Shown here piece by piece: positions 8,871-57,100 of a DNA stretch of 64,000 bases; position 1 is the stretch's first letter, and every line of letters begins with the position of its first letter. The stretch lies in assembly GCA_963924555.1 (NCBI GenBank), contig OZ004593.1, forward strand, positions 806,001-870,000, given 5' to 3'. The notes under the pieces are model-generated. The model was not told where the DNA came from and ran no database searches. It saw only the letters and a list, made by a program, of their open reading frames with translations. Origin of the DNA: Crambe crambe. Lineage: Eukaryota > Porifera > Demospongiae > Poecilosclerida > Crambeidae. The position numbers were made by a program, and so were the translations under genes.

Positions 8871-10554
8871 TACCTTATGGAGGATGGAGAGCACACAGTA
8901 TGTCACATTAGTGATGTGGTGGTAGAATTTCCCTTTCAGCCTTACTCCTGTCAGCTGGCCTACATGGAGAAAGTCATCCAGGCCCTGCAAAAGGCAAGTC
9001 CTCACACCTCCTGAACTAAACTAACCTCTTCCTTTCTAGAACACTAACGCCATTTTGGAGTCACCTACTGGGACTGGGAAGACACTGTGTCTGCTGTGTG
9101 CCACTCTTGGGTGGAGGGAGAACCTGGTGGAAAAACTGAGGCAGCAATCTGGGGATCCAGGGGACCTGGGAGGAGAAGGGGAGGAGCTAGATCCATGGGA
9201 CTGTCCCCTACCCTCAGGTGTGTGTGTGTGTGTGGGGTAGGTAGCAGGGATAGTCATCAACGGTGAGAAGGATTTTAATATCTTCTGATGCAGGTAGGAG
9301 TGGAGTAATATCCAACGTTCCAAAGATCATTTATGCCTCTAGAACTCACTCACAACTCTCACAAGTCATCCAAGAGCTCAAGAACACCAAATACAGGTAG
9401 CTATAGTAACAGGGTACAGATTGCCAAGTCCACTGCAAAGGATTCTCCTCTTGGAGATAAGAATGTCCCTTTACCTATTGGTTCCAGATATGGAACTGCT
9501 TTCTTTGTGTTCCATTCCCAGACCCAGAGTGGCCATCATTGGTTCCAGGGAGCAGCTATGTATCCATGGAGAAGTATCCAAGAAGGAGACTAATGCAGAG
9601 AAGGTACTCTCCTTTGAAGCCCCTCCCCCAATTACCTTCATAATTGATTTTTCTCTAAGATTCACTTATGCCGAGCAAAAGTGAAGAACCACAGCTGCTT
9701 CTATTACAACAACACTGATGGTGAGTTTTGCTGACTGGACACTTATCAGGCAGTGGATTATTTTGGCTGATATGCAATGCAGTAAGGAGATTGAGTGGGA
9801 TTGAACAGGTGATGGACGTGGAGGACCTGGTGCTAGTTGGTAACAGGCAAAAGTAGGTGTGGCCTCTGTGTTATACGATGAAATAACATAGTCATCCTCT
9901 TCCATATACAGAATGTGTCCTTATCTGGCAAAGGAGCTGAAATCCAATGCAGATGTGATATTCATGCCCTATAACTACATATTAGATTTAAAGGTCAGAA
10001 TAGAGTCATGTGACTGTCATATGATGTGGATTAGTCCTTTTTTTGTTTGTGTTTCGTTGTTGTTTTGCAGACTCGGCAGATGCATGGTGTGGATGTGGAA
10101 GGGACTGTGGTGATATTGGACGAGGCCCATAACATAGTGAGTATAAGATGTTGGGGTGACCTCTGTCTCGTTACATTCATATGTACGTAGGAGAGGGTGT
10201 GTGAGGACTCTGCATCCTTTGACCTCACCTCTAGTGACATTGCCCTGTGCATAGGGGACATCAGCCACATTCTCCTCAAGTACAAGCCGGACACTGATAA
10301 TCCCCAGGATGAAGATGGGTGTAGCCACAAGGGGCAGGCCCTCAGTTACTGTTGCTAGGAGAGGAGGAAGACATTAAAGATTATGTGAACTTAAAAGGTC
10401 AGTTGAATAGTGGTGTGTGATTGCTGATGCTATTAACCTGAATCTCTTTCAAGCCCTCCATGTTTGTGGCCTGACCTAGCATCCTTGCCCTTTATGATAT
10501 GCTTACCCTACCCTTGCCCTTTGACCCTTTGACCCTTCATCCTTGCCCTTTGAC

Positions 10555-10855
10555 TATGGCGGGGTATAAGCGTCTTAAACTCTGGGCGAATGTCCCAGTA
10601 ATCGCCCGGGCATATGTCCGGGCAAATGCCCGGGCAGTTGCCTGGGCACGGCACAAAAAAGGGGCGTGACGACCACACCTTACCTAAAAAGGGCGGGGCA
10701 GATCACAAGTGGGCGTAGCTGGACTGCAGACAGATGCCCAGGCAACTGCCCGGGCAACTGCCCGGGCAGATGTCTGGGCGAATGCTGGCGTTCAGTAAAG
10801 GGTTCAGGCCAGTCTAGCTTTATGCCCAGGCAGAATCGGAATCAGACTTTGTGTG
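10555..10855 (+). repeat. Left terminal inverted repeat with 12-bp-period subterminal motifs
   Basis: This is 301 bp matched by the right repeat. Two clusters of four GCCCGGGCA-like nonamers sit at 10604-10648 and 10736-10780, each nonamer separated by exactly three bases, giving a 12-bp period. Such iterated subterminal motifs are typical places for transposase binding; that function is inference. The integrase ATG follows the repeat by 22 bp, so the repeat probably also supplies its promoter. Confidence 0.9.
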
Positions 10856-10877
10856 CCCGTGTGTCTCTAGCACGTAA

Positions 10878-12423
10878 ATGGCAAGAAGAAGTAGGGCTGC
10901 TGTTTCATTCAGCTCTATAGAAGTTCTAGAGGGCGTAGGAAGACTTCTATCAGAGGTACAGCATTCTTGCAGGGATGGTAGCATCTTCCACGATAGAATT
11001 CATGGATTTCAACTGCGTCTAAGAGATTCCTTGAGGAATGTAGAACGTCTATCTCACTTGTTAGGAAGGGAGAACCATCAAAACATTATAGATGGTCTGC
11101 ATGAAGTGTTAAGATCTTTGGGACAAAGAGGAAGAAGAATAGGTTCCAATGATGATGCTTACATATCTCATCAGGATTTTGATGGTAAACATACCAATAG
11201 TAGCTACTTGGCAACATAGATATTAAATCAGGGTTCTTTATGGTACAGGTCAGCAGGGAAGGCCTCCTTTCTCCATACCACAAAATCAACTCGAGTACCT
11301 GGTTGGAATTAATTTTACTGTTCCTGAAATTGCAACTCTACTCGGTGTGTCTCAGGCAACAGTTCGAAGAAGAATGCAACTGTATGGACTGTCCATTCGA
11401 CAGACATACGCTCCCTTACCTGACACAGAGCTTGATGATTTAGTGGCAGAAATTGTAAGCGAACATCCCAATTCTGGATATAGAATGATCCGTAGCCACC
11501 TGCTTAATAGAGGACTCAGAATTCAGGAAAGAAGAGTCAGAGAATCACTTGCTCGCACTGATCCATTATCAGTAGCATACAGATGGAGTCGAAATGGCAG
11601 GATACATCGAAGACAATATTCGGTACCATATCCCAATGCCATTTGGCACATTGATGGCAACATGAGCCTGAACAGGTGGAGCTTTACTGTTCATGGGGCA
11701 GTGGATGGATACAGCCGCCTTGTGACTTACCTGCATTGTTCAACCTATAACAATTCTGAAACTGTTTTGGCTCAGTTTGTTAGAGGTGGTGAGAGATATG
11801 GTTTCCCATCTCGAGTGAGATCAGACTTTGGAGGAGAGAACATTTCTGTTGCTCACTTTATGACTCTTGTGAGAGGTACTGATCGGGGGAGCCATCTTAC
11901 GGGAAGATCAGTAAACAACCAGCGTATAGAACGCCTTTGGAGGGATGTATTCGCTGGATGCCTGAGTACTTACTACCACCTCTTTTATTTCATGGAAAAC
12001 AATGGCATTTTGGATATTGAAAATGACCTGCATATTTTTGCACTTCAGTATGTTTATAGACCTCGAATTAATCGATCTCTGGTTGCATTTCTTGGGGCCT
12101 GGAACAGGCATCCAATACGAACAGCTGGTAACCTAAGTCCAATTCAACTATGGGTTACTGGAATGCTTCAAAACTATCATTCAGCACATTTGCCTATCCA
12201 AGAGGTTTTCGCTTCTGAGGCTACAAGCATGACAGATTATGTACCTGATGTAGATAGGTCTAGAACCACAGAGTCAGAAGACAATGGATCATTACATGGA
12301 GTTCCCCTCCAAGACCTAGAACAGTCAATTGACCCATTGCAAGAAAGTTTCGTGTGGGGTATTGATATTTATGTTAGTGTTCTGGAATTTCTGATTGATG
12401 TGGCCAGTGAGTCCTCTGATTGA
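10878..12423 (+). CDS. DDE integrase-type transposase (493 aa, two exons)
   Basis: Exons 10878-11184 and 11249-12423 join in phase (GATG/GT) to give 493 residues. After an N-terminal region of unknown fold comes GRPPFSIPQNQLEYLV and a helix-turn-helix (TVPEIATLLGVSQATVRRRM, about 125-145). The integrase core has Asp in WHIDGN (about 238), Asp in RSDFGGEN (about 295) and Glu in NQRIERLWRD (about 330). The spacing is D-D-34-E, as in retroviral and IS3-type integrases. The protein should cut and join transposon ends in the nucleus. It matches the stand-alone putative integrase core family common in cnidarians, sponges, fish and fungi. The track-length alternative start at 11347 would lose part of the HTH, so the spliced start is preferred. 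Start ATG lies just inside the terminal repeat. Confidence 0.88.
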
Positions 12424-12726
12424 ATGACCTATTATAGCCAATAACCTGTATCAAAATAATATTATTGATGAAGTAATTGCACAAATCTTGTGAAGTTGAT
12501 TATGGGAGGAGTGACTGAGTTTAGAGTTATTGAGGTTCATGAGTGATTGTGAAAAAAAGAAAGAGGATAGCTAGCTATGAGTTTAGGTTCATGAGTGATC
12601 GTGAAAAAAAAAGACCATTATTCAAAGATTGTGACTGAATTTAGAGTTAAGGTTCATGAGTGATTATGAAAAAAATTGAGCATTGTTCAAAGAGTGATCA
12701 TGAGTGAGCAACTGTGAGAGAAGTTA
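12424..12726. other. Shared 3' region between the two convergent transposon genes
   Basis: The integrase stop and the HECT stop are about 300 bp apart and converge. The gap carries three to four degenerate copies of a unit around GGTTCATGAGTGATCGTG followed by an A-run (about 12530-12710). No open frame is seen. Overlapping 3' ends, and so antisense pairing of the two transcripts, are possible. Confidence 0.6.
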
Positions 12727-15700
12727 TCAAAATACATCGAAAAACCACATATTCCTGTTGTTTATAACAGATGTAAATTCATCAGAAAAGGTAGTGTATG
12801 ACTCATAAGATATGGGGAGGTGGAGAGTCATCGTGCATGTGTTTGCTGTGGGTCTTCTTTCGAAGCCTTCCATGGAATTAAATAACACTTTGATTTTCTT
12901 GTTGCTACAAACCGAAAATCCAGTAATGAAACTGAGAAATCTTACCAGCACTAGAGGAACTAGAGAATAAACAAAACGGCGTAGAAAGTCATATACGGCT
13001 TCTTCAGATTGATTCTTGAAGTCAGGTTCAGCTATCATCTCCCAGACTCGTGTGGTAGTTGGATGCAACATCTCATACATAGCATCAACCAGCAGTGTGT
13101 TGCCGGTACACCTATTCCAAAGTGTGGGATGGGAACTGAGCATACCCCTTCTCATTTCACTGAGGGCGTAAAATGGCTTTGCTATCAAGGCATATCTTGC
13201 AGCTTGGGTGACTAACTTAGAAAGGTTTTCACGTGTTGCTACAGCTGACACATAAAATCGGCTCAACATCGGGGTGATTACCCTAGCAATCAAGTCACTT
13301 GTTAGTGATTCACCTGTCTTTTCCAAAGCCGATCTTTCAAAGTCATCAATGTAGTCATAGAAGGAAGACACTATCTCACCATCAGATAAGGGAACATCCA
13401 CACCATTTATCAAAATCTTGGCACAAACAACAGATAAGTTAACGGGGAAATAGCCAGTGAGAATATATGCATGAGATACAAAGCGACCAATATGATAAAA
13501 CTGTGGGAGATAAGATGGAATTACTGGTGGCACCTTAGCACTGCTACCATCCATGACACGCTCGAACTCATCCCAGAAACAATTTACTACTTCACGACGT
13601 AGACCACCCATATCAATCCCACGTTCATCATTGAAGTGGACTTTAATCTCCTTCCAATGTAGATTTTGATCCGAAGCATATGCATCGATTATACAAGAAA
13701 CAACGTTAGAGCGATCCACATTTAATGTGGACACGCCATTTTGAATTAGCTTAGCACGAATATTTGCCCGCCCACCATCCATTTCCACGATATCTCGAAA
13801 AAATGACCTGAAATAGTAATAATTATGTATGTGGTTTCAGATGCATGCTTAACACTCTTAGCTAACCTTTCGCTTTCACTTGGAGATGCAGGCTCTACCT
13901 GTGTCAGATCTACAATTTCGACAGCTTCCTACAGTGCACGATATTAGTGAACTCATAGGTGTAAATACCGGGGGAGGGGGGCTTTGGGGGCTAAAAATCC
14001 CCTGAAATTATTTTATAACATAATAAATGAATGTGCTGACTCATGACTCATAACCACATTACATACATGCTGATAGAGGGCAGGCTAAAAATGAATTTAG
14101 AATCCCCCCCACTATAAAATTTATGCCTACACCCATTCCCACACTAGCAAAGAAGATGCCCTCATCAGTTGAACAAGTGTATGTACTAATAATGATACTT
14201 ACGTGAACATCTGGGGGGGTTTCCGGTACAGCAACTTCCTCATTCTGCATAAGGGTATTAATATTTATTATTGGACCTAAATTCTGCTATGTGCGTACTT
14301 ACCTGTTTATTCTCTCCAATTACAACACAGAATGGTGGTAGACCTGATTCAAAAAGTCTCATTTCTCTATTCGTGGTGAGAGGTACTGGTATTGTAGAAA
14401 ACCTTGCAAGCACTCGAAAATTTCGTGGGTTAATGGATTCGTGTGAACCAATTAATGCGTAAATGGCCTGTGTATACGTATAAAATAATTATGTACCTGT
14501 GATATACATGCATACGTACATCAACTCTGTCAGTCATCAGGAACCGTCTGGATATTCGGCTGCCGTCGGGAAAGAGAACTCGGACTTTCATTATGTTTGG
14601 CAATCCTATGGCAGGCTCTGGTGGTATCGTTAAGCTTAGATCAGAACGGATCTGCCGATGCCACTATTGTTGGTATTCAGAATGAAAGTGGCAACTTTTT
14701 TTTGCACAAGAACTAACCTCATTCATTCTTCTTTGTTGTTGTTGTTCATCCACTTCGTCTATCCTATTTTGAATTGCATCATCTTCAGTAATTTGTCTTG
14801 ATATAATACTATTCCTTTGCTGCAGCAGAACATAACATTTGCACTATTGTGGGATCACAGTTTTTAAGACATCACCTGCTCTCTGTCAATCTCTAGGCTT
14901 TGCTGGAAAGCTCTATCTTGCTCTGCTCGTATACGTCTAGACTGGAATGTGCATGTGCAAAATTATATTCAATAGCTTGCTAAGACATAATTAGTAGCTG
15001 ATACCTCTTCAAGTGATGCCCTCTCATTGATAGATCCAGCCTGTACTTCGACATCGGAGTGATTTGGTTCTTCGTTTTGACTGGGACTGCTAACACTAGA
15101 CTCAGCTTGAACTTCTTGGACAACCTCAGATAAAGTCAGTTCTTCATTTGGACTAGGCCTGGCACTGCTACCATCAGATCCATCAACAACCACCTCTTGG
15201 TTAGCTCCAAACTCATTCGGTTCTATGGCGTCATCAAGCTCATCAATAATTTGCTGCCCACCTCCAGCCTCTTGACTAAAGCTAGTGCTGTGTGTGCCAG
15301 CATCTCTGTGCATCGTTGCCATGCCACTACTATGTGAATTGCCACCATCGACTGGAGAATGAGTTAGCAAATCACGAAGAGTTGGTTCACCATGAAGTCC
15401 ACCTACTGAAGCCCGAGATTGAGGAGAACTATGGGTTGAGAAACCAAGGGATTCTTCAGGGGAATAGCGTGATGATCGAGGGGATCTGTTGTCAGTAGAG
15501 GTATGCCGAGTTCGAGGGGGTCTAAATAAATCACTATAGAACTCTGAAAATAAAATAAGTTATAAGTGTCATCTCCAGATATGAAATATGGTAAAAATGG
15601 CTGGTCATTGCTTGGTATTCGAGTTGGGTCATCGATGGACAGGGGAACGATAACTTGGTGCCCTGGACCCCCTGCTCTGCAAAACTCATATGACGTGTTC

Positions 15701-16278
15701 TTGAGCATAGGGTATAGCGATACAACAAGGTAGTGTAACTCAGTTGAGCTGAGAAGGTCAAGTTCTAATGGTTCCTCATCTCTGCTGAACCATAGAGTTC
15801 CCATACCATCTCTGCAGAGGTCGTCCATTGCTGATTTGGTGGGCACTCTGCTAATATCTGGCTTAGAGAGACAGCAGGGTATGGTTTTCCATTTTGAGAT
15901 CTTTCGTCTTTTTTGGCGTCTACCCCCCTGATTCAAGAATGGGAACCTGGTACCTAGCTCTGTTGGAAGAGGAGCAGTGGAGTTAAGGAGTGATAACCCA
16001 TGCTGTACTGCCCGGTACACTCTCTCTGTAGCACTGGCTATTGGTGCAGTACCTGTCACTGTTGCAGTACTACTTGATACAGCAGTTGCTGCTGGAGTGG
16101 AAGATCTGCTTCTACCTCGTCCTCGGCTCCTACTGAAAGATGATGGAGATGGCTCTATAAACTCTTCCGCAGAATCAGTTGTCGTTGTTGTATCTCTGCT
16201 GGAGAGACTCTGAGCTCGAATCCTAGACGAAGATAGTTGCAAACGGCGCCCTCTGGATCTTATAGGCCTTTCAATCAT
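12727..16278 (-). CDS. Transposon-borne UBX-HECT ubiquitin-ligase-like protein (~936 aa, 9 exons)
   Basis: Exons (minus): 16278-15655, 15541-15005, 14941-14876, 14819-14718, 14651-14520, 14467-14303, 14244-14203, 13928-13867, 13807-12727. Exons 2 to 9 join in phase with good splice sites. The first junction is uncertain: donor CAA/GTTATC and an AGAG acceptor restore the frame, but a frameshift is possible. Order: Arg/Ser-rich N-terminus, a conserved LVVSLYPMLKNTSYEF region (about 150-208), an acidic stretch, a FAF-type helix (RRIRAEQDRAFQQSLEIDRE), a UBX domain (KVRVLFPDGSRISRRFLM ... ESGLPPFCVVI, about 465-535), and a HECT domain with GIDMGGLRREVV and catalytic Cys in TANTCTMTLHLP (about 901). 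HECT enzymes form a ubiquitin thioester; UBX domains usually bind p97/VCP. The role in transposition is unknown; controlling transposase stability or host factors is speculation. Confidence 0.82.
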
Positions 16279-16340
16279 CTCTAGCTCTAGCTATATTACA
16301 CATGCATGCTCTACACCAGCTAGCCCATAAATCAGGCTGA

Positions 16341-16641
16341 CACACAAAGTCTGATTCCGATTCTGCCTGGGCATAAAGCTAGACTGGCCTGAACCCTTTA
16401 CTGAACGCCAGCATTCGCCCAGACATCTGCCCGGGCAGTTGCCCGGGCAGTTGCCTGGGCATCTGTCTGCAGTCCAGCTACACCCACTTGTGATCTGCCC
16501 CGCCCTTTTTAGGTAAGGTGTGGTCGTCACGCCCCTTTTTTGTGCCGTGCCCAGGCAACTGCCCGGGCATTTGCCCGGACATATGCCCGGGCGATTACTG
16601 GGACATTCGCCCAGAGTTTAAGACGCTTATACCCCGCCATA
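16341..16641 (-). repeat. Right terminal inverted repeat
   Basis: Reverse complement of 10555-10855, same length, with only scattered substitutions (for example the GGCGTAGCTG of the left repeat corresponds to GGTGTAGCTG here). It contains the same two clusters of GCCCGGGCA-like nonamers. The ATG of the UBX-HECT gene lies 63 bp inside it, so the repeat probably acts as that gene's promoter too. Confidence 0.9.
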
Positions 16642-18659
16642 TTTGACCCTTCATGCTTATCCTACCCTTGCCCTTTGACCCTTTGACCCATCATGATATC
16701 TGCAGAGTTTTTTCTGGCCATTGAGAGGACACTTGATAAAGTCACTTTTGCAAGAAACAGGAGGTAGTCATGCCTGGAGAGTGAGTGTTGGATGTGTATC
16801 TTATGTTAGTCATCAGTCTTGACTTCTTCCTCCAGTTACATCTTCAAGTTCTTTGGTTCTGCTGGTCTGAGACAGGACACATGCAGCATGTTGCTGGACC
16901 AGTGTACCAAGGCCATCACTTCCTCACCACCGACCCTCACTCTGTTCACAGAAATGGAAACAACATACAAAAGTTTGTGGATAAGAAAAAGCTTAAAAAT
17001 ATTAGCATATCAATAACTGCCTTGTAGAGTTTTGGAATATTTATTTCTTTTCTTAGATTGCGTTCAGCTCTGCCTCCACCCCCTCAGGCCAGAATGCCTC
17101 CCATCACTATAAAGTGTTCATCAAGTCTGAAGAGAATCTTTACAAGAACAAGAAGACTAACACATGGACTGTGTCTCCATCAGACACAACAAAAAGAGAA
17201 AGTAAATCAAAAAAATATTATGTCTTGTTGAAACTATTTCTTGTTGCAGTTCGTACCATTAGTTACTGGTGCTTTGGGCCGAATTGGATCGAGACACTCT
17301 GTGACGTGAGTCAATTGTAGTCCTTCATGGCTCTACTTACCTCCTTTCTTTTTAGTTCTTGCTGAAGGTCTCTCAGACTTATGGAGTGGGTAGACGTCAT
17401 GTCAGAAAGGTTAGTCATGGATGTGAAATCACATTACTGTCATATGAGTCATATGATCGTCACATGATAGTCACATTGTCTCTTTAGCTGTCGCTACAGA
17501 TTTGTGGTTCCAAGGACAACTATCGTCAGACCAGAGATGTCCATGCCCTCAAGACCTACATGAAAGTTGTCATGGATACATGCCAGGGGGCTGGGTTTGA
17601 TCCTGATGGGAGTTCGAATGGCAACGGTGTTACTTTGAACCTTGGCTACAAGGCCATGCTGAATTTGATAGAGCAGCTCAAGGCATGTGGTGAGGTTGCC
17701 TCCATGAGGACATGCAACTGGCAGGTTTACTGTCAGAGGGAGAAAAGTAAGATCGTTGGCATTATTCTATCATCTCGTTCATTTCCTTTCTGCTTTCTAG
17801 AAACACTTCCTTATCTCTTCCAAGCTCTGTTTGTTCTCGATGGAGGCCTTGCTCCCCTAATCCTCCAGTTGATTCACTCTGCCCTCTCGGGGACGCCACC
17901 CAGCAAGGAGGAGAGGTACAGTCCAGAGCCGGATGCTGGATCCAAGTCCCATATCTCTTCTAGGAACTCTCGTCGCAAGGAGATGGAGGAGCACAGGAAG
18001 TCCAAAGAGAAAGCTAAAGAGAAGGAGACCAAAGTGTCTGTTGTAGGTAAGTAAATCCTATGTAAAAATGCTTATCTTACCCTGCTCCTCCTCCTTGTCT
18101 CCACTCGGTCTCCCCTCCTCTTTCCACTACCCTCCTTTTCCTCCTCCTCTTCCCGTTCCTCTTCTTCACCTCCTTCTCCTCCTCCTCCCCTCCCCCTCCC
18201 CTCATTCTCCTCCTCTCCCCACATTCTCCTCCTCCTCTCCCTTCAGTGCCCAATAAAGAGCTTTGCAAAGCACTGGTCCAAATGTTTCTCTCTTTTGTCG
18301 ACAACCGCTCCTTGTCCCGCTTCTCCGAACTATTCCTCCTTCAGGCCAACTCCTCCCCCATTCGCTGGCAGGCCCATCGCCTCATCCATTGCCTGTATGA
18401 GTACTCCTCCACTCCCAAGCGAGTCTCCCTCATGGAGATCCTGTGGGGATTGTGGCCGAACATGCCCAATCACGGCCACAAGGCTGCCCAGTTTGTGGAT
18501 CTTCTTGGATACCTCACTATTTCCACCCCCCAAGTCCTAGAAAAGGTGGGGTTGTACTATATCTTGAAGTAATATAGAGATAATAGATTTTTTAACCAGG
18601 GTGATACCCATAATGTTATTCTATTATTATGGAGCTAATTGAAACAGGGTTATACCCAT

Positions 18660-18770: not shown

Positions 18771-21700
18771 TTACTGCATAAGTTGAGTGATGAGTTTTCT
18801 CTGTACTTGCAGGATTCTCTGTGTCGGTCATATGTGGAAAGAGCTGTTTCCCTTTTGAAGAAGCAGAACTCGCTACTCAGCTCTCATCCTAACTCACATA
18901 TTTACTCCCAGCTCCGTTCGTTGGTTGATTTTGATGGTTTCTACCTGGAGAGTGAGCCATGTTTGGTATGCAATGACCCAGAGATCCAGTCCTCAGTAAG
19001 TATTCATGATTTACTAGTAGATTACTAGATGATTTACTAACTTTTGTTGTTTTATCAGATGCTGAAGCTCCAATCAGTGAAGTCCGAAATTCGTTACACA
19101 CCCGACATGATTCTAGTCAAACTGGTTGGCTCTCACTCCATCTCCCAGATACTGCTACGCATCTCAGACATCAAGAGAACAAAGATGGTGAGTGGTGGGC
19201 ATTAATTGGAAGAACATGCTTTTGATATTATATTTGCAGGTTCGTACAGTCAATGTTTACTATAGCAACAGAACTGTTCAAAATGTCATTGAACTGAAAA
19301 ACAAGTGAGTATTAAGTCGCTCCCCTCAATTGAAATTGATATCATTTCTCCACCTCTTAGGCGCAGTCTATGGCTGATGGCCAAGAGTTGTAGTCTCACA
19401 GCAGGTCAAAATGAGGTCAAGGTACGTTCATAGTTGTCATGAGGTGAATTATAATTTATAACTGGATATCTTAAACTTTCCTCTCTCTCTCTCTCTCAGA
19501 TCGACTTCCCCCTTCCTATAGTGGCCAGTAATATTATCATTCAGTTCTCTGATTTCTATGACAACCTCCAGGTATCCATGAATGTTACATAGTTTGCAAA
19601 ATATGTAGTTAATCATTACTTGACATGAGAAGGTGAATTTTCGAGTTAAGACCTTTTTTTGCGGTTAAAGTTCCAGTGGAGGGTGATTTGGTACTTCCCC
19701 TGGCGTTCCAATCGCAGACAGTAAATAGTTGTCACGGATCAAGGCACGAGTGGGGTTATTTATCTTGTCACGCCCCCTTCAATGGCATGGCAAGACGCTT
19801 GCTCACTTACATTGATTCTGATTCTGATATTCACCATAGCAGGGAGGGAGGGAGGGAGAGAGAGAGAGAGAGAGAATCATCTGTTAATCAATCAAAATTA
19901 TTCCAGGGAAGTTCTGAGATGCTTCAGTGTCCCCGTTGCCAGGCAACTGTTCCCGCTCACCCCGGGGTTTGTGGTACATGTGGTGAGAATGTGTACCAGT
20001 GCCACAAGTGTCGTGCCATCAACTACGACGAGAAGGACCCGTTCCTCTGTAATGCCTGTGGCTTCAGCAAGTATGCTAAGTTTGATATCTTCATGGAAGG
20101 AAAATCTTGCTCTGCTGTGGACCCTATTGAGTCAGAAGAAGACAGACTGAAGGTACATTTAGATAGTGATAGCAAATGGTGGGTGAATAGCTAAGCTGAA
20201 GTAGTATCAATCTCCAAATAATGCACACCATCATTAATTTTAAATAATGCACACCTATGATGAATTTAGAATTGCATTTCCACCACCTGCAGACCACAGC
20301 AAGTATCAACCAGCTGCTGGAGAAAGCTGACAAGATCTACAGACAGCAAGTCAGCCATCGGAATGAATTAGACCAGCTGCTACTTTATCTGGCCAGTGGT
20401 ACCCCCATTCCAGCCAGAAACGTGAGTAATCAGAGCTCATTTACATTGCATTAATGTTGATTTAAATGTCTTAGTGGAGTTCTCTTGCCAGTGGAGTTAA
20501 TAAGGGAATCCAGCTGGTTGCCCATCGCTACTGTGTGGAGTGCAAGGACATTTACTCTGAGCTGAGCAAGATCATCCAGAGTGTTCTTGCATCGAGGAAG
20601 GAGCTGGTGAAGTATGACACACACAAGGGAGAAATGGCTGACAAAGAGGTGGATCAAGAGGATGGTCCTCATCTCCTGTCCCCCACACCATCACCTTCTA
20701 TCACTCCATCTGTTATGAGAGTGAGTCCCTGTCATTATGTCATCATTATATCCATCCCTAAACTCTACTCGATTCCAGTTCCCTGTCCAATCGACCACAC
20801 CTCCAACCACACCCCTTCTTCCCTTCCAACCCCTGCACCACCAGGGGAGGTGTTATGGTTGTGCCTCTGCAGCTACCGAACACTGCATCACACTGCTCAA
20901 GGCCCTCACCTTCCAGACCAGCACCCGTTGTCCGCTGGTGCAAGAAAAACTCATACGAGAGTTGGTGGAGGTCAACTTGAGATCGGGAATCCTCTCATCT
21001 GTAGCTTGATGGTCCCCAGCATGCTGTGGTCCAGTCCTTGTTCCTCCACTCCTTGGCACAATGGAAGCAGCATCGACTCACTTTCCTTCGTCGTCTCCTT
21101 GTTCTAGCTCATTCACGCAGCATCAGTTCTGCTCCCATCAAAAAGTGAGTGATGATACACAGTAGTTGGGAAACTTGAAAGATGTACTTTTTATTTTCCT
21201 TTTAGCTTGCCCTCTTCTGATCCTGCTGACTTTGCAGTTTACAAGCCTTTCTTGATTCTATTCGGAATGGTTGATGGTCTTCAAAATGCCTTAAAGGTAA
21301 CAATGATGACCAGTCCTTCAGTCCCAAGTAGAATCTAATGTTACACATTCATTTTCGGCTACTCTTTAAACTTTGGTTCACCAACTCATGACTACTGGTG
21401 GCCATGGTCTAGACATTTGGTGGTAACCATTATAGAACACATGATGGAAGTTTGGAAGAAAACTGAGCAAATTGAATAAAGTTTCTATATATGATTGTAA
21501 TTTCCCCTCAGGAGGCCAGCCTGGAGGACTCTGTGTGTGGTGCTGACATTCCCCCTGCCATGCTGGAGTTTATTAGGAACAATGACGTAGCTGTGATGGA
21601 AGGATGTGACAAGGTAGAGTGAAATCTCCTGTCATCATTACACGATAATGATCCATTGATGTTCCAGGTGTTGACCCTTTACCAGGAAAAGTTACTAACT

Positions 21701-23070: not shown

Positions 23071-26000
23071 ATGGCAAGTACGAAATTAAAGGAGGTAAGT
23101 TGTAATACTGGTTGATCATGTTAATGACGATTATGGATCCATGATCAACAGCTTGCTAGCTATAGGCGGTTAAACTTGCAGCTGCATACAGACAGGTAGC
23201 AACTAACTGTGGCAGCTGCCGGTCGTAGTTTTAGCTTTATTGAAACTTGTACTTGGTAGCTAGCATAGGTCTATAAAAACTGGATAGCAGCTATTTTAAC
23301 TTGCCTCTAGGCATAATTTTAGTGCCTATAGACTTTGTATTTGAAAATAGCTAGTTAGTTACTGTTTAGCTATTGTTAGTTGTATCAGGTGGTGAGTTAA
23401 TTTATCTATCCTCACAGATAAGGGAGGAAATTGAGAGAAAGAAATGGGTGAGTTAGTGCTGTGTGTGTGTGTGTGGTAACCTTCTAGAGACCAATATTCA
23501 TACCATGCCATATTTGGTTATTTCCCATAATTCATGGCACTAGAGTCATGTTATCATGTGTAGATAAGGACTTATGGTGAAAGGTTCATATCCTGCTATA
23601 CCGTCACTCTCATTCTATGCCCACTCATAACCCTGGGAGTGAAAGCAGGCTGTGTGCAGTGAGGGGTTGCTCATTAGCCCACTAAACTACATGACCTTCA
23701 AGTAGATGTTACCAGCATATTGTCCTCCATGTTTGGTGGACGTGCCTCATTCAGTGTCCATGCAGGACCCCTGCTTCAGTTTCGTCAAGAAATGCTGACT
23801 CAGCACTTAAAGATATACTCCCCAGCCGAGGGAATTGTGTGAGTCCTAGAGACTCATGGACCCCATGGCTGTATAGAGCATAGTTCACTCTATATATCCT
23901 CCATGTTTGGAATCTACAACTCAAATGCCTTGCATGCTAGACCCCTGCTCAATTTTCTGCAAGCCATTTTTGACATACAAATGTCCACTCAAGTGTGCCG
24001 AGGGAAGTGGGCGTGGTCTATTGAATCATAGACCCCTTGACCTTATAGAGCATGATTCACTCTACAAGTTCTCCAAGTTTGGAGGCCGTAGCTCACATGC
24101 TGTGCGTGTGGTGATTTTTTTTTGTGGTGCATGATGGCTGTCTTTGTGTGTTGGTTGTATGGTTGTCTCACCTTCTCTCTCTCACTCCTCACAGTTGAAG
24201 GCATCCTATCAGAGGGTGATAGAGGACTATGAACAGGTGAGTGATGAGTGTAGCAGTGGTGTGATGAGGGCGTGGCATGTGGCCCAGTCCATACCTGGTG
24301 TGTGTTCCATGTGTGCAGGAGATTCCTGGATGTCAGAAAAGCATCAATGACCCCTCCACTGATGAGAGTGAGAGGGAAAGGCTGAAGGGGGAGGTGGAGG
24401 AATATAAGGGATACATCCAGGCGATTAAACGAGAAATTAATAGATATGATAAAGCAATTATCACCTTAGGGGAAAAAGAAGGTAAGTCACAATAATAATT
24501 ATACAAAGTACAAAGAAGTCATGTAATAGTGATGTTGTGGTTAATTAATTTTAACATGATGATGTAATTAATGTAGAATTAAATTTAATACTCATGTCAC
24601 ACGTAAGTAAGGTTAATTAGTATGAAAATTAATTAATTAAAAGGAGGTGAAATTAATTAATAATGTCTCAGGCCATAACTTTAGAATGCAATGAGCTATC
24701 AACTTCAAACAAAGTGCATTCTGTTCTTAAAAATTATTCCCTTCTGTCTATGTGACTCAGTTGTGATGTAGTTGGAGAGAAATATGTGTACAGATAAACA
24801 GTTAGGTTTGTGAGCTAATGTATGTTATTATCATTGCACTCTTTCTTTTAGCTGCTATCTATGGTGTTGAAAACCGAGATCTCTTCAAAGAAGCCATGAT
24901 GAAAGGCTGCCTTGAATACCCGCAATTAAGAATAACGATATTTGGTTATGCTGGATCCGGGAAGAGCCACGTCCTTGCTCTCATGCTCGGGGAACCTCCT
25001 CCTGAAATACGCATCAGCACAACCTGTGCCAAGAAGCCGGTACGAACCATATCCCACAGTAGATTTGGTGTAGATGAGAAAGTATTAAAGAGAATAAGCG
25101 AAGAGGAGTATTCGCATATGATGATGAAGACAGCCAGGGATGGCATCTCAAAGTCCAAATTCCTAAATTTTAAAGGGATATTGTGCAAGGTTATTGGATA
25201 TGTGCCTTCTGAGCCAACCGATGAAGTGGAAAAGGATCTGATAGTTCAGTTCCACAAACACGAAGCTAGTGTGGAATCACTTGAAGGCCAGATTGTGGGG
25301 GAGGTGACTGACTGCGGTGGACAGCCTCAGTTCTTGGAAATACTTCCAAGGTTCATCGATAACCTCTCCCTCGGCATACTGGTGACCGACCTCAGCCAAC
25401 GTCTGGACGAGTGTCCCATGAATTACTACTACAACAGCCAGGGGGAGCCTATCGGGGAAGGAGTGAGATCGTTACTTACAAATGAGCAGATCCTCTGTCG
25501 ATGCATGCAAATGATCGTCTCGCAGTCCCAAGGGGGTAGACGTGTGAGGTTTGTGTTCGTGGGCACTCATCGTGATCTGGAGCACGAATGCACCGAGTCA
25601 AGGGAGGAAAAGAATCAGAAGCTAATAGAGATGGTGAAGTCCTTTGATCTGGAAGACAGCGTCATCTACAGCAACCAGCAGTTCAACGAGCTGATCTTTG
25701 CCCTCAATGCCAAGGAGCCCGAGGAAGCTGACTACCAAACAGCTGGTGTGCTGATAGAGCTGATGATGGACAGATCTGTAGCCAAGACTATTCGCATCCC
25801 AATCAACTACCATAGTGTGGAGCTGACTCTGAAGCAGAAGGTACAGAAGTCCAATCAGATTGCATTTCTGGAGTCTGAGATCTTGCAAGATGTGGCTCAC
25901 TTTCACTTGACAAAGGATACACTGAAGGGAGCTTTGAGATATCTGCACGACATTAAGCTTATCTTCTACTTCGAGGAGGATTTTCCTAGCGTGGTGATTG

Positions 26001-27602
26001 GAGAGCCTCAGGCCGTCCTCGATAAGCTGACTGAGTTGGTGGCATACCACATTGAGCTGACCACCAACCCCAAGAATCAGAAAGCAGTGGATGGGAAGTG
26101 GAAGAAGTTCAGTCAGTGTGGGATCCTCAACATCGACTGTCTGAAGAAGTTCCCAGGCCAGTACGTGGAGGGTGTGTTCTCTCCTGCCGACATGATGAAG
26201 TTGTTTGAGAAGCTGTTCATTGTGTCAGAGGTGAATCAGGGGGAGTATTTGATGCCGTGCGTCTTACCCATGGATCCTCGACCCAGCTGCAATCCAGAAT
26301 GTGAGACACAATCGGTCCCACCCATGGTCCTCAACTTTACCAGAGGCATGCCAAGACATGGAATCTACTGTGGCACCATCTGCCACGTGATGACTGAGAC
26401 CAAGTGGAAGTTGTTAGAAGATCCCACGACTGGCAAGCCATTCCACATCACCAGAAATAGCGTCCATTTCTCTCTCCCACGTGACCCAGTCAAGATCACC
26501 ATCAACGACAGCCTCGACTCTTTCTTCTTGATTACTGTCCATGTCTCTCCAGAAGCATCCTACGATGCTGAAAGTATCTCTTGCATGTGTACCATGATTC
26601 GCAACACTCTGGTGGAGGCCATCGCTGAAGTAACGAAGAAGCTGAATTACACTTCAGACAACCCCGAGGTTACCTTTCTCTGTGAGAAGCACAAGACCAC
26701 TTCCCTCCATCCCGCTGTGAGGTCTGAATATGGCAGTGATCTGACATGCACTAAACATCACATCAAAGGAGGGACTCTAACTGACCAGCACAGGGTCTGG
26801 CTCAAAGGTGAGTGAAGTTAGTTACATTCTTTTTGTAATTCATGTGCCTGAATTGATTAGGAGTTACTTCCTCTTCCACCCCTGTCCCTCAAACAGGGGT
26901 CACCTCCCCTCGTCCTCCACCCCCTGACTCCACCCCCGTTCATCATATCCAATCTTCCTCTTACAGTAAGTCTAGTTTGAGTGAAAAAAAGTCACGTGCT
27001 TCTTTTTACAGGTATTACTTCGTCTACATTCATACCTCCTGACTCTACCCAAACAGGCCCTCGTCCACCCCATGTTCCTCAAGCAGGGGTCACCTCCCCT
27101 CCCCCTGACTCTACCCCTGTTCATCATATCCCATCTTCCTCTGGTGGTAAGTCTAGTTTGGGTTGGATTAGGTGTTTGACTGTATCTTCACTCCAGATTA
27201 TGCACCTCCACAAACTACATCTGCTTCTTCCAAAAAAGCCACTTCCCATAACCTATCAACAGCTGACCACTTCAAAGTCGTTAAAGTCCTGAAAGCCCTT
27301 GATAATGAGCAGCTGATACACCTGGGCACTGCACTGGGGCTGGAGTATCCACATTTGAAGCGGATGCAGACCTTGCCTGACGATATGGTGTTTGCGTGGT
27401 TGAACATGGAAGATGAGGTGATGGACACCAGTGGTATTCCCACCTGGTCCAGTTTGATCAAAGCCCTAGAGGACACCGACCAGAAAGGGGTTGCTTCACG
27501 CATCAGGAACGGTAAGTTTGGACCACCCAATTGTGTTGATGATCATGTGATGTATTGTATCTATAATCCCTCACAGAGCAACACAGTAACCACCCCAAGT
27601 GA
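23071..27602 (+). CDS. Roco-like P-loop GTPase with C-terminal death domain (931 aa, gene 1)
   Basis: Nine exons sum to 2,796 nt: 23071-23094, 23418-23447, 24195-24236, 24319-24481, 24852-26807, 26861-26965, 27012-27146, 27197-27511, 27577-27602. A charged N-terminal coiled coil (to about residue 86) is followed by a GTPase-like domain: Walker A in GYAGSGKS, switch II DCGGQPQF, and G4-like GTHRD. Next come a COR-like helical/winged-helix region, a conserved tail (CETQSVPPMVL ... GGTLTDQHRVWLKG), two Pro-rich linker exons (SPRPPPPDSTP) and a death domain (LKALDNEQLIHLGTALGLEY ... WLNMEDEVMDTSG ... TWSSLIKAL). Architecture recalls DAPK1 (Roc-COR-death) and MFHAS1; a cytosolic nucleotide-controlled death-domain adaptor is inferred. 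No leucine-rich repeats or kinase are present. 5' exons were placed by phase and by matching the sister gene. Confidence 0.82.
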
Positions 27603-34203: not shown

Positions 34204-35615
34204 ATGTGGCAGTTATTTATCAAAGGACTTGAAGGGAAAACTTACACAGTCAACATTGAAGGACCAAACCCTGAGGTTTGTATTGCATCAAGTTTAATTT
34301 TATTGCCTTTTCTAGCATTATGCTCTAATATCTTTCCATTCCATACTTGACTTTCTTTTCCATAAAAAACTGCATGCGCAGTTCTTCTCTCCCTTTCCAA
34401 AAATCCTTCTCTTAGACTTTCCATAGAAAACTTCTTCATTCTCTTTCCATATAGAAAACTACAGTTCTGCAACTGAAGAAGCTAGTTGAAGCTAAAACTG
34501 GAGTGGAGGCTTCATATCAACGTTTGATCTATACCTCCCGCAATATGGAGGACCAAAAAACATTGGGAAGTTACGAAACGCTGCGACATGGATCCAACAT
34601 CATGCTGGTTATGCGGCTCCCAGGAGGGAGCACTCACTTGCCTATCACTGAGTTTGAGCTCTTTGTGAAGGTAGAAATCCACAGGGTCATAAATCTCAGT
34701 GTGAAATCTACCAACACCATCAAAAGCATCAAATCCATGATTCAAAAAATGACAAAAATTCCTCCAAACCAACAGATGCTTCTCTTAGGAAAAGAGCAGC
34801 TCAGAGATGAACGCACTCTAAGAGACTACAATATTCTGAAAGAAATGGGACTTGATTTGCAGTTGAAGTGGAAAGTAGATCGTTCCCTTCCGAAAACCAA
34901 AGACTACTGTATGATTGCTGCTGTGAATTCAGAGGAAGATGGAGTTGAAGTCTTAAAGATGCCGTGTGGACATTCCATGTCATCAGAGGGACTGATGCAG
35001 TATGCCAAAAATGAAGTGTCTGCAGAGAAAAAGACTCAAATCAAGTGTCCCCAGTGCTCCAAGATCTGGTCATTGGCTACCATCCGTCGATACAGTGGTG
35101 CCACAGCATCAGAGTTAGATGAACTTGAAGAAAGCCTCTCTCGGAATTTTTGCATAAAGAGTGACGATATCAATCAATGCCCAAAGTGCCAGAGCTTCAT
35201 CACTCGTCAAAACCCCGAGGAGAATTCCGTCAAGTGCATCATTTGTTCCAAGAAGAGCTCTGATGCTTTCTACTTCTGCTGGTACTGTCTAAGAGACTGG
35301 AAGAGTCCCTCATTATCGGCCACCTCTTGTGGCAATCCAGGTTGCAACGACGCTGAGAAACTGGCCCAGTTGCGTGACTGTGGCACTGTGAAAGTTGCTT
35401 ATACTAGCACGACGGTCCCTCAATTCCGAGCCTGTCCTCACTGTGGTACTGTAATCGAGTTGGCTGGTGGATGCAAACAAATGAAATGCAAGTCGTGCCG
35501 GGAAGAGTTCTGCTTTATTTGTTTGAAAAAAAGGAGTCGGGGAAGCTGGGCATGTGGTCAGTACGATACAAAATGTCAAGTGGCACCAGTGCAGACTTCA
35601 ATCCCTCATAAATAG
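34204..35615 (+). CDS. Two-ubiquitin-like-domain RBR-type E3 ligase (410 aa)
   Basis: Exons 34204-34275 and 34455-35615 join in phase, giving 410 residues. The first ubiquitin-like domain (MWQLFIKGLEGKTYTVNIEG ... VLQLKKLVEAKTGVEASYQR) is followed by a second (about 85-155; IKSIKSMIQKMTKIPPNQQM). Then come cysteine-rich modules: a RING1-like MPCGHSMSSEGLMQY ... IKCPQCSKIW (about 193-225), an in-between-RING QCPKCQSFITRQ ... FCWYCLRDWK (about 265-305) and an Rcat-like ACPHCGTVIELAGGCKQMKC (about 358-378). The Cys after GG in Rcat is in the position of the catalytic Cys of Parkin-type RBR ligases. The RING1 module lacks a typical full set of ligands. Two tandem N-terminal Ubl domains differ from Parkin, which has one. 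Most of the protein is a single exon, which could reflect a retrogene that gained one intron. Confidence 0.75.
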
Positions 35616-46328: not shown

Positions 46329-49300
46329 TCAGTTTCGAGAAAGTGCAGACACTTCTCTAACTTGTATGTGCACACAATCTTCTTGGATGTACTGGACACG
46401 ATGTGACACACCAAACATCTTTGCATGAGTGCAGAATCGAGGATATCCCCATGCGGTAGGTGCAGTCTGATCAGGCACACGTCTACGAGCGTCCAAACTT
46501 GCTTCTCCGAAACGGATTACGTTCAAGACATGAGATCTATCTCTCACCCAGTTGACCATCTCTACAGTAACTTCAACATTCATCGGCCATTTCAATAATG
46601 AATCATACTCCCCTGCCATGAGTCTGGCATATATCCCCATTTCTCCCTCTGAATCTCCCATTTCAACTTCCAGCCTCAACTTGTATCCTTTGGAGTGTGT
46701 GTAAAATGGAGGACTGTAGCATGTAGTTTTATTGGCCAGACGACTTGAGACGCCCGTGACTGTAAAATCCACCTTATTCCACCAGTTCTTCCAACTTGGA
46801 GTCTTGAATCTCAACGGTGTATTGTACATCACTATATCAGTGACACGCACGCGCATACAGTTGTCCTTGAGATACTTGGAGAAGAGAGTAGATGTTGGCA
46901 TGAACTTGCCCAAGCCATAACCGACAGGCTCTATCACTTCGGTAGTAACTCTGGAGTGACCCTCTGACGTGGAACAGTCCAGTGGAAGAACATTCTTATA
47001 GTGATCGCGATCTTCACACCAGTTCAAGACTTCTATGGTTAGGTCGCCACAGAATGGCCACTCGAGTGATCCATCCTTCTTCCCTTTGAGCAAGCAAGCA
47101 TACATGGACACATATCCACAATTTTCTCCCCCAGATCCACCGACATATATCTTGAGACACATTTTATACTTGGCAGCATGGAATGGTGGGCTGAAATAGA
47201 AGTTATCCATCTCCTTGCGTTCGGCAACATTGGTTATGGTGAAGCTGGCAGGTTCATTATACATTTGCCATCTTGGTGCCTTTGTGGAAAGTTTCGTAGA
47301 GTAAGTTGCTACCTTTCTGACCCTGACGCACAGACAATCATCTTGTAGGTACTCTGTATCGTTGAAAGAGAGCAAATGGTAAGGTATGAAGTTAGCAATG
47401 CCCCAACTTTTGCTCTCGCCAAATTCCACATGACTGTTACTTGCGAGGGGGATGCGTTCATGAAAGGCAATGTTGTAGCTGTGATGGTTGCTGTCCTGTC
47501 TCCAGTTAAGTAACTCTACGACTACATTGGCGTATAATGGCCAATCGAGTGAAGCATCATTTCCCCCATTTAGCAATGAAACGTAGAGACCAACATGCCC
47601 ATCTTCGCATGGTTCCACTCTAAGTTGCATCTTGTATCCATGAGTGTAAAAGGTCGGGCCCAAGCAACCACTACTCAAGGACTTTCGTTTGCTGAAGTTA
47701 TTCACTGTAAATTGAGGGGGAGGTTCGATTGATTGACGAGTTTGCCATGAAGGTTCTTTGTGAAGGGTTGGAGTTGAGTGTACAACGACTTCTTTAACCC
47801 TGAAGCGCAAGCAATTGTCCTTCAAGTATTCAGTACCCGTTGCAGCATTAAAGGGAAGAGTACTGTGACTAATCAGATCTTCATTGCACAGCAAGAAATA
47901 CGATGAGTTTGCAGTCATCATCCAACCCTTCGTTTGTGCAGATGAATTTCCTGTCAAGTTGCTCTTCATAATTCTGTTTCTCTTGTCTTGGTCACCGACA
48001 CTTAAGACCTTAGTGTGGTGATGTTTGTCACTTCGCCAGTTGACCAACTCCAATGCTACATTGCCATAAAAGGGCCACTGTAAGTGATCGTCATTTGGCC
48101 CGTTCATCAATTGGATGAAAAGACCAACATCACCATCCTTTGCAGCATACACACACAGCTGCATTTTATACCCATCACCATGGGAATAGAAAGGATCACT
48201 ATAATATATGCTCTTGGAGGTTTTACGCTCAGTGAAGTCGGATACAGTGAAGCAAGGATACAAAGAGCTTGTATTTGGATCTGAAACTTTTGGTGGTGTG
48301 GACTCATCAGTACATGACCCTGTATTTGGATCTGAAACTTTTGGTGGTGTGGACTCATCAGTACATGACCCTGTATTTGGATCTGAAGCTTTTGCTGGTG
48401 TGGACACCTGTCCATTGTTAATAGATGTCTCTTCTTCTAAGATCTCAAAATACACCAAGTACTTCATGTCATAATGAGGCTTATCCACAAAAAGTGTTTC
48501 ATTCTCTTTCTTGTTTGAAGAGGTCTCGTGTTCTTCATTCTCTTTCTTATTTGAAGAGGTCTCATGTTCTTCATTCTCTTTCTTATTTGAAGAGGTCTCA
48601 TGTTCTTCATTCTCTTTCTTATTTGAAGAGGTCTCATGTTCTTCATTCTCTTTCTTATTTGAAGAGGTCTCATGTTCTTCATTCTCTTTCTTGTTTGAAG
48701 AGGTCTCGTGTTCTTCATTCTCTTTCTTGTTTGAAGAAGTTTCATGTTTTTCATTCTCTTTCTTATTTGAAGAGGTCTCATGTTCTTCATTCTCTTTCTT
48801 ATTTGAAGAGGTCTCATGTTCTTCATTCTCTTTCTTATTTGAAGAGGTCTCATGTTCTTCATTCTCTTTCTTGTTTGAAGAGGTCTCGTGTTCTTCATTC
48901 TCTTTCTTGTTTGAAGAGGTCTCATGTTCTTCATTCTCTTTCTTATTTGAAGAGGTCTCATGTTCTTCATTCTCTTTCTTATTTGAAGAGGTCTCATGTT
49001 CTTCATTCTCTTTCTTATTTAAAGAGGTCTCATGTTCTTCATCTAATGATAAATTTCCTGTAAATAAAGTACCAGTGAGTCAACTACATCAACATAACAT
49101 CAATTTTTGTACATGAGGCATGTAACTAGCTGACTCCAGAAAACCTACCTTCAAAGTAATGTACCAATTCATCTGCTGTGGGACGATGATCGGGATTGTT
49201 GTCGAGACAGCGAATGATAAGATCCTTCTCCTTTGATTCTTGTATCTTAACCAATAGATCTGTACGTCGTTCCACCTCTGTCCTGTGTTTGCCGTTCTTG

Positions 49301-54147: not shown

Positions 54148-57100
54148 ATGGCGACGAGCGAGGTACGTTCAACTAGATCAGTCTACAGTAGATTTCAGGT
54201 TGCTTGACACTAGTACTGCAGCCACCGAGGTCACATGGACCAATCAGATTTGCAGGCAATGATGTTAGCATGAATCTGATTGGTCCATGTGACCTTGCTG
54301 ACTGAAGTACTGTGTCAAGCAACCTGCAAACCACTGTATGCCTAGAGCCTACATTATATTGAACTCTCCCTCTGACATAGATAAAGAAACACAGAAAGAA
54401 ACTTCAAGAATGGAACAAGGTGAGTGTAGCAGCTAGCTTGATTAATTGGAGCCCTAACTTAACTTCATAGCAAGTGGTGTCAATATACAAAGCCATGCAT
54501 TTCCTGAAACTTTACTCTGCCTGACGGTTATAGAAGCACACGATGTTTAGGTATCACTAGCTAGCTTATAACAAGGCCTACCCATTGCAGTGAGTTTCCC
54601 ATGAAGTGTATAAATGCTATAAAGATTTCCATAGAACTAATGCTGGATTCCCTAATGCTAACTGTGAACAGTTCATTTGGTGTTTGAGTAGTTAGATCTA
54701 GTACATTTATTAAGCTACTGCTGTGTATGAGTTTCATGTTCATGTTTTGATTGGTCTCTGAGATAGAGCTAGTTATAAATGTGGCTTCCGGAATCACTAC
54801 AGGATTAGGTTGGGAAGGGGAAAACCTTGATAAGTCCCAGCATATACAATAAAGTCAACACTTAGCTTAGTAGTGAATCCCAAAATAAAACAAACAAGCT
54901 TTGTAGCTGTTTCAGTTCAGTTTCAACATCAAGAGGTTTAATTACAATGCTATGTATGTTGTAGACTGTATGATGGCTCCATCCCATTGATTTCTTTTTA
55001 TTATATAACTCTCAGGATGTGGTTACTCATCAGAGATATATCGAGGAATGCGAAAAGGTGAGTAATTAATGGGTGGTTATATCAATTGCATTCCCATATC
55101 AGCCTGGATCGGTGTTCCATTCTCAAATTTCATTCTCATTCTCGTCAAGACATGATGGGTATATTCTTGGTGTACATAGGTGATTTCAAGTAGGCTGTGT
55201 ACTATTGACTCTCCCTCCACTGACGAGGGTGAGAGGGAGAAGCTTATAGAGGAAGTCGAGGAATATATCGAGAGCATCCATTGGCGAAGGCAATACCTTG
55301 ATGGCTATGAAAGGGAATCAAGGCAACTGGAAAATGAAATCAAGCAAATGCAAATCACCTTAGAGGAAAAGGAAGGTAAGTCAAGGATGGTAACTAACTG
55401 TTTTACATTATCAAGCACATTAACTGAAAAGTCTATTTTGCATTCCCTTGCCCCTTGATCATTCACTATAACTGCTATAACTTTCTCGATTCTTAACCAA
55501 ACTTCTAGTTTAATGCATCAATAGAGACCACTTGCTCTGCTAGTGTTTGAAATTTGGACAAGTGAATGGTACCAAGGTGAATGTAAATAAACTTTAGTTG
55601 GCAGAGATGTTCGCTTTGCTGCATGTAGTCAGGGATTACTGGATCATTAGTCAGGGTTCTGGTTATACTATGCACCCACCCATGCAGTTGTGTAGATGAC
55701 AACTTAGAGTTTATCACTTTCTAACTCTTTCTATCAGCTATCTCCAGCGTGGAGAATCGAGATCTCTTCAAAGAAGCCATGGAGAAATGCTGCCTCGAGT
55801 ACCCTCACTTAGGAGTGACAATATTCGGCTATGCTGGTTCTGGGAAGAGCCACGTCCTTGCTCTCTTGTTTGGGGAACCCCCTCCTTGCACACGCACCAG
55901 TACACCCTGTGCCAAGAAGCCGGTACGAGCCATATCCCACTGTAAATTTGGTGCAGATGAGAAGATATTGAAGAAGATTGGTGATGACGAGTATTCACGA
56001 ATGATGATGAAGACAGCCAGAGATGTTGTCAACAAACCTAAAAGTTTTATGCTGAGATTCAAAGGGATGCTGAGATCTGTTGTATGTTGTGTATGTACCT
56101 CCTCACCTGCTGATGAAGTGGAAAAGAATTTGATTGTGCAGTTTCACCAGCAAGAAGCGACTGTCGAACCACTTGAATACCAGACTGTGGGGGAGGTGAC
56201 TGACTGCGGTGGACAGCCTCAGTTCTTGGAAATACTTCCAAGGTTCATCGAGGATCTCTCCCTCGGCATACTGGTGACTGACCTCAGCCAACGTCTGGAC
56301 GAGTGTCCCATGAATTACTACTACAACAGCCAGGGGGAGCCTATCGGGGAAGGAGTGAGATCGTTACTTACAAATGAGCAGATACTCCGTCGTTGCATGC
56401 AAATGATCGTCTCACAGTCCCAAGGGGGCAGACGTGTGAGGTTCGTGTTCGTGGGCACTCATCGTGATCTGGAGCACGAATGCACCGAGTCAAGGGAGGA
56501 AAAGAATCAGAAGCTAATAGAGATGGTGAAGTCCTTTGATCTGGAAGACAGCGTCATCTACAGCAACCAGCAGTTCAACGAGCTGATCTTTGCCCTCAAT
56601 GCCAAGGAGCCCGAGGAAGCTGACTACCAAACAGCTGGGGTGCTGATAGAGCTGATGATGGACAGGTCTGTGGCCAAAACTATTTGCACCCCAGTCAACT
56701 ACCATGGTGTGGAACTGACTTTGAAGCAGAAGGTACAGAAGTCCAATCAGATCGCATTTCTGGAGTCCGAGATCTTGCAAGATGTGGCCCACTTTCACTT
56801 GACAAGGGACACGCTGAAGGGGGCTTTGAGGTATCTTCATAAAATGAGGCTTATCTTCTACTTTGAGGAGGATTTTCCTAATGTGGTGATTGGAGAGCCT
56901 CAGGCTGTTCTTGATAAGCTGTCTGAGTTGGTAGCGTACCACATCGAGCTGACCACCAACCCCAGGAAGCAGAGAGCACTGGATGGGAAGTGGAAGAAGT
57001 TCAGTCAGTGTGGGATCCTCAACATCGAGTGCCTGGAGAAGTTCCCAGGCCAGTACGTGGAGGGTGTGTTCTCTCCTGCCGACATGATGAAGTTGTTCGA

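Follow-up and report, generated by a model that had tools for sequence, protein, structure and literature searches.

The window analysed here, a stretch of 64,000 nucleotides from the sponge Crambe crambe (contig OZ004593.1, positions 806,001 to 870,000), contains a transposon of 6,087 bp (10555–16641; positions are those of the window) in which a DDE integrase gene is paired with an oppositely oriented gene for a HECT ubiquitin ligase. The element is almost certainly a two-gene DNA transposon of the IS3EU/GingerRoot kind. To judge from the sequences compared, HECT is very probably a conserved gene of this element, as the first-pass annotation had proposed: it is present in all six full copies of the family, and the same pairing is found in distantly related families.

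Structure and copies of the element

The element is bounded by the inverted repeats of 301 nt that had been reported before, at 10555–10855 (+) and 16341–16641 (−). Left and right repeat of the window copy differ by one mismatch in 300 aligned columns. The left repeat starts with TATGGCGGGG and contains GCCCGGGCA sub-repeats, and the right repeat has CCCCGCCATA at its end; the termini read TATGG..CCATA in all six full copies. The proposed target-site duplication (TSD) TTTGAC does flank both ends (10549–10554 and 16642–16647). However, the target in the window is a short repeat that contains TTTGAC several times of its own, so that the left duplication is ambiguous and the pair is by itself no proof of a 6 bp TSD. 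A clear 6 bp TSD is observed in four of the five other full copies, C1a, C5, C8 and C9 (CCCGGA, ATCTGT, CCAGAG and ATTGAT, in no stated order). The fifth, C1b, shows no 6 bp duplication; the spacing from C1a to C1b is 132 bp.

When the left repeat was searched against the genome of 143 Mb in 119 contigs, both ends were found at six places and the left end alone at two. The five full copies outside the window are 6,412–6,425 bp long, and pairwise identities among the six amount to 99.3–99.8%. The ends and these near-identical copies confirm the earlier view of a complete-ended DNA transposon that was amplified recently. Copies of the repeat family without a HECT gene were sought and none was found, the integrase and the HECT gene being present in six of six full copies. 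C1a carries a stop within HECT, C9 a HECT frameshift and C8 an integrase stop; both frames are open in the remaining two copies besides the window. Damaged HECT genes hence occur in three of the six full copies (the window deletion described below, one stop, one frameshift) compared to one damaged integrase. Within the family, 9 synonymous and 16 nonsynonymous changes were counted in HECT (pN/pS 0.53, p 0.10) and 8 and 11 in the integrase (pN/pS 0.41, p 0.05). In this comparison of selection between copies, which had been suggested before, the changes are too few to be decisive, and the nonsynonymous share lies under the neutral one in both genes, strongly in neither.

The integrase gene comprises two exons on the plus strand, the first with the N-terminal part (10878–11184) and the second with a helix-turn-helix, the rva_4 core and the stop (11249–12423), together a spliced frame of 493 aa that is open in the window copy. 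Exon borders of both genes were read from splice signals and frames. The open reading frame 11227–12423 matches Pfam rva_4 (PF24764) with E 8.6e-84. In an alignment of 13 integrases, of which the other 12 are 35–51% identical to that of the window, D143, D200 and E235 (ORF numbering; codons starting at 11653, 11824 and 11929) are invariant, and the 34 residues between the last two correspond to the D-D(34)E signature noticed from the start. With one Cys only ahead of the first catalytic D, no HHCC zinc motif can be read in the window integrase.

According to the main text of PMC10045372, IS3EU/GingerRoot elements have TA..TA termini, usually a 6 bp TSD and a DDE integrase-like transposase without an HHCC motif. 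The window element shares the TA..TA ends, the 6 bp TSD and the integrase without HHCC with this description, and differs from the published elements in its HECT gene, neither HECT nor ubiquitin being mentioned in that main text (PMC10045372). IS481EU, with TSDs of about 4, 15 or 25 bp in the same text (PMC10045372), was considered and rejected, the TSD here being 6 bp.

The HECT gene lies convergently on the minus strand. It is complete in the sister copy C1b, where nine exons with compatible phases throughout encode 985 aa in the order N-terminal domain, low-complexity linker, UBX domain of the p97-adaptor type, HECT domain. In the window, exon 1 (15582–16278, ATG at 16276–16278) contains the N-terminal domain and is truncated at its 3' end; exon 2 (15005–15541) encodes the linker and exon 3 (14876–14941) the EQDRAFQQSLEIDREQ motif. 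Exon 4 (14718–14819) is followed by exons 5 (14520–14651) and 6 (14303–14467) with the first and second half of the UBX domain, exons 7 (14203–14244) and 8 (13867–13928), and exon 9 (12727–13807) with the HECT domain, the catalytic Cys codon at 12835–12837 and a C-terminal FFDVF. The N-terminal domain resembles that of another family, L058 (26% identity over 114 columns, E 8e-5).

That this gene encodes a true HECT domain with its catalytic Cys, as had been claimed, was substantiated by the Pfam HECT match of the open reading frame 12727–13836 (−; E 1.6e-9) and by a profile of eight HECT relatives, which aligned to a NEDD4 chain over nearly the whole length, catalytic-Cys motif included (E 1.3e-11). 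The catalytic TC motif is kept in all seven of the eight aligned rows that reach it, and the DxGGVxR motif of the N-lobe reads DMGGLRR in the window HECT domain, in which the catalytic Cys is also present. HECT domains of the T1 group in other families (T1–T3 are our labels for HECT query groups) are 26–35% identical to that of the window and retain the N-lobe and catalytic motifs. The protein is similar to host HECT ligases of the NEDD4 type, with which most of the HECT domain can be aligned, the catalytic Cys included; it differs from them in being transposon-encoded and in possessing a UBX domain, and Pfam found UBX and HECT in the 985 aa protein and no C2 or WW domain.

The UBX domain was absent from the first account of the element. 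In the window family it exceeds the Pfam cut-off (24.5 bits compared to 21; residues 513–577 of the C1b protein). Two other families scored 20.5 and 15.1 bits against the same cut-off of 21, and one tested piece of family L060 gave no UBX match. A six-frame scan of the genome with the UBX profile yielded six places, none of them at these elements, whose UBX domain is split by an intron.

In the window copy, about 330 bp are missing at a junction at 15571–15590 in comparison to the five other full copies. The lost segment includes the end of exon 1, where GRVYIRPLKE is encoded (L058 has a similar GRIFIRPIQ), as well as the donor site and the greater part of intron 1, and exon 1 runs on into exon 2 out of frame and then meets a stop; the HECT domain itself is undamaged. 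The annotation had described both genes as open, spliced and convergent, which holds for the orientation and for the integrase over its two exons. The ligase gene of the window did not turn out to be intact. With the exon 1 end and the donor deleted, it is probably broken, and a HECT protein is unlikely to be made from it; an unseen alternative splicing could possibly rescue the gene.

Pairing of integrase and HECT genes in the genome

The integrase search gave 111 matches. Pairing in the Crambe crambe genome was evaluated at 72 loci, namely those among the listed matches of a separate PF24764 profile search that cover at least 100 profile positions with E up to 3e-33. Shorter matches were excluded, as were four more listed ones, all from contig C3, that are long enough but have a weaker E. 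With a single HECT query and the Pfam HECT profile, a convergent HECT match within 2.3 kb was found at 33 of the 72 listed loci and another arrangement within 12 kb at eight, and 31 had none. Further HECT-family queries raised the number of listed loci with a HECT-family match within 9 kb to 60 of 72, a figure helped by the choice of queries since the later ones came from integrase-adjacent loci, so that 33 to 41 of the 72 is the less query-dependent measure. The 60 pairs are convergent in 45 cases, divergent in 11 and on the same strand in four. No HECT-family match within 9 kb was detected at the other 12 listed loci, three of which have a divergent match slightly farther away (about 9.5, 9.8 and 14 kb). 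Inclusion of the four C3 loci leads to 61 of 76 listed loci, C3:891314 having a HECT match about 1 kb off and the other three none. After 500 random shifts along the contigs, the sizes of three of them being estimated, 1.5 loci were paired on average and 16 at most, compared to the 60 observed.

In total, 127 HECT features were considered (45 from the first search, 28 weak ones judged not host-type, 27 after repeat removal and a further 27 of 28). Fifty of these 127 matches have none of the 72 listed integrases within 9 kb. Contig C3, on which 24 of the 50 lie, is rich in fragments, and several unpaired HECT matches are located near shorter integrase pieces that had been left out. As controls, 28 host-type HECT matches were chosen by hand, one piece per stronger host-type gene; none of the 72 listed integrases has a control within 9 kb.

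The 20 best loci among the 111 integrase matches were grouped by hand into 11 families, and a HECT-family gene occurs in at least one copy of each of the 11. Two of them, L025 and L028, were counted through homology to the HECT of other families without a Pfam match of their own, the call in L025 being based on the middle region alone by its likeness to families with a C-lobe match. The recurrence of the pairing in widely diverged families suggests that HECT has long been kept by the element lineage. L060 is a second family with defined ends: according to the coordinates, a perfect terminal inverted repeat of 115 bp with TATGG and the TSD GGCTCG enclose both genes. An element of about 10.1 kb on C17 has TATGGGGTGC ends, imperfect repeats, CACTAG/CACTTG and a divergent HECT-type gene. 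A family of five copies (C11/C21/C9/C17/C9) was considered as a HECT-less one and rejected as such: the next 6.6 kb hold a divergent HECT-type gene in five of five copies. At E up to 1, none of these pieces matched Pfam directly; they were called HECT via the homologous piece C9:7610288, 0.7 kb downstream of which lies a PF00632 C-lobe (38.7 bits). An automatic search for terminal inverted repeats at six other loci found none, the stretches being short or decayed. Short integrase pieces of two recurrent sizes were also observed on many contigs, one set of 165 bp (profile 28–82) and one of about 135 bp (profile 141–185); examples are C8:8568999 and C10:2283962, perhaps deleted or intron-rich elements.

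In a tree of 17 integrases the HECT types do not form single clades. T1 and T2 need three changes each, and two changes of HECT type are forced by strongly supported branches. The integrase of C1:7034 groups with two T2-bearing integrases (100/99), and by distance, rather than by a HECT tree, its HECT is closest to those of C6b and C12. Across nine T1 families, no correlation is seen between HECT and integrase distances (Mantel r 0.15, p 0.25); with C1:7034 left out, they are correlated (r 0.60, p 0.016, n=8). HECT and integrase therefore seem to have moved mostly as a pair and to have been exchanged between lineages at least once. A nested insertion behind the mismatch at C1:7034, one single-copy locus, is possible.

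Outside this genome, protein searches returned 61 proteins with the HECT query and 3007 with the integrase, the 120 listed of the latter including proteins from Halichondria panicea and Ptychodera flava, in both cases as matches without genomic context; a combined UBX and HECT search gave none. Viral contigs contained no match to the integrase profile. Among prokaryote genomes, the integrase is encoded on three contigs (L063–L065) of one bacterial MAG, a symbiont of a sponge of the order Poecilosclerida. Two HECT profiles gave no match on the three short contigs, which are probably host DNA in the MAG.

In the open-licence literature searched, IS3EU/GingerRoot is a known kind of element and its pairing with HECT is not in print. 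No link between IS3EU and HECT, nor between a HECT domain, a DDE transposase and a ubiquitin ligase, was found there, and IS3EU with ubiquitin gave only work that is unrelated by title; among the papers listed, none came closer than those cited here. The main text of PMC12730594 describes fungal TET+ IS3EU elements in which an alpha-kinase gene lies opposite the transposase, with a TET/JBP dioxygenase gene in between that is thought to aid escape from methylation. The window element resembles these in its 6 bp TSD, in the TAYGG..CCRTA ends and in the oppositely oriented gene for a protein-modifying enzyme; unlike it, their second genes are alpha-kinase and TET/JBP, and HECT and ubiquitin are absent from that main text (PMC12730594). 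By analogy, a ligase in a position like that of the fungal enzymes fits the pattern of host-directed enzymes. To our knowledge, cut-and-paste transposons with a host-directed enzyme are few, and the roles of such enzymes are mostly untested. In Cottus fish, a passage of PMC5638112 reports an unclassified multicopy repeat candidate whose translation matches the ubiquitin-protein ligase G2E3. No classification, integrase or ends comparable to those of the window element are described in this passage (PMC5638112). The Cottus repeat may be a hint at such elements elsewhere. G2E3 is a HECT protein.

Possible role of the ligase

Judged from anatomy and not from an assay, the D-D-E integrase would perform cut-and-paste transposition into 6 bp targets. 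The encoded HECT protein is predicted to be an active ligase, and we consider this likely. Supplied in trans, the HECT-UBX protein would ubiquitinate a host protein, for which a silencing or a repair factor would be a candidate. UBX domains recruit p97, and the two together might strip the ubiquitinated host protein from chromatin or send it to the proteasome, resulting in better expression or integration of the element. Damaged copies such as that in the window could then be mobilised by sister copies. To the chain as a whole, a two-gene IS3EU/GingerRoot transposon whose ligase acts in trans on a host protein via UBX and p97, we would give an even chance. Since HECT types have apparently been exchanged between integrase lineages, a host target appears likelier than the cognate integrase, and the swap makes it less likely that the target is strictly the cognate transposase; this step is based on a single presumed exchange, at a locus with one copy, and the arguments for the host rather than the element itself as the target are finely balanced in our judgement.

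An action of the ligase on its own integrase would be the nearest alternative: the protein would mark the integrase, and UBX with p97 would dismantle the strand-transfer complex or cap the transposase level. ClpX carries out such a disassembly for phage Mu, and the frequent pairing with an integrase and the union of UBX and HECT in one protein would suit a role of this kind. A cognate substrate should, however, keep the partners together, and the HECT type at C1:7034 departs from the integrase tree; we regard this self-regulation as rather unlikely. Still less probable is a protein that serves mainly as a chromatin-bound scaffold or as a dominant-negative decoy of the host ubiquitin system, with ligase activity secondary. 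The distance of the HECT domain from host HECTs (Pfam 36–38 bits) and the long low-complexity linker would be consistent with it, and the retention of the catalytic TC and of a DxGGVxR-like N-lobe motif across families argues against it. The Phe four positions from the C-terminus of HECT domains matters as well, and it is kept in two of seven rows.

A HECT gene that is captured host DNA without any role would agree with the damage in half of the full copies and with pN/pS values not significantly below 1. This passenger capture was nevertheless rejected as very improbable and is largely refuted by the gene's presence in six of six copies, by its recurrence in 11 of 11 families among the best 20 integrase loci, mostly tail-to-tail, by the conserved catalytic motif, and by the absence of the 28 host-type controls from the 9 kb around any of the 72 listed integrases.

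The occurrence of a ligase gene next to the transposase in many diverged families and in two gene orders, together with its apparent swapping between transposase lineages, suggests that ubiquitin transfer aids the spread of these elements. They would offer a testable system for how a transposon influences silencing, repair or complex disassembly in its host, and may account for HECT gene families that recur in annotated animal genomes. More speculatively, and with considerable doubt, HECT, fused to UBX in some families at least, could be an ancestral part of the core of animal IS3EU elements, as a ubiquitin/p97 module that removes host silencing or repair factors or spent integrase complexes from chromatin; the multicopy G2E3-like HECT genes of other animal genomes would then stem from these elements.

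Genomic setting

According to the flanking frames, the element is probably located within an intron of an RTEL1-like helicase gene, between putative RTEL1-like exons (10000–17400). The Pfam ARCH_RTEL1 match at 17057–17320 reaches 27.3 bits with a cut-off of 27. Several ubiquitin-pathway genes were also observed in the window: a host-type HECT gene at 59129–60063 (−; PF00632 pieces at C16:865129-866063, one of them among the controls), an open reading frame with ubiquitin-like domains and IBR zinc fingers at 34455–35615 (+), and a UBR4-like piece at 19637–20194 slightly below the cut-off. Two similar open reading frames of 669 aa at 24806–26815 and 55725–57734 (+) share a GYAGSGKS stretch, presumably a P-loop; a Pfam search with one of the two gave no match at E 0.01. 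A further open reading frame of 916 aa (46329–49079, −) combines a long tandem repeat of NKKENEEHETSS with four MATH domains.
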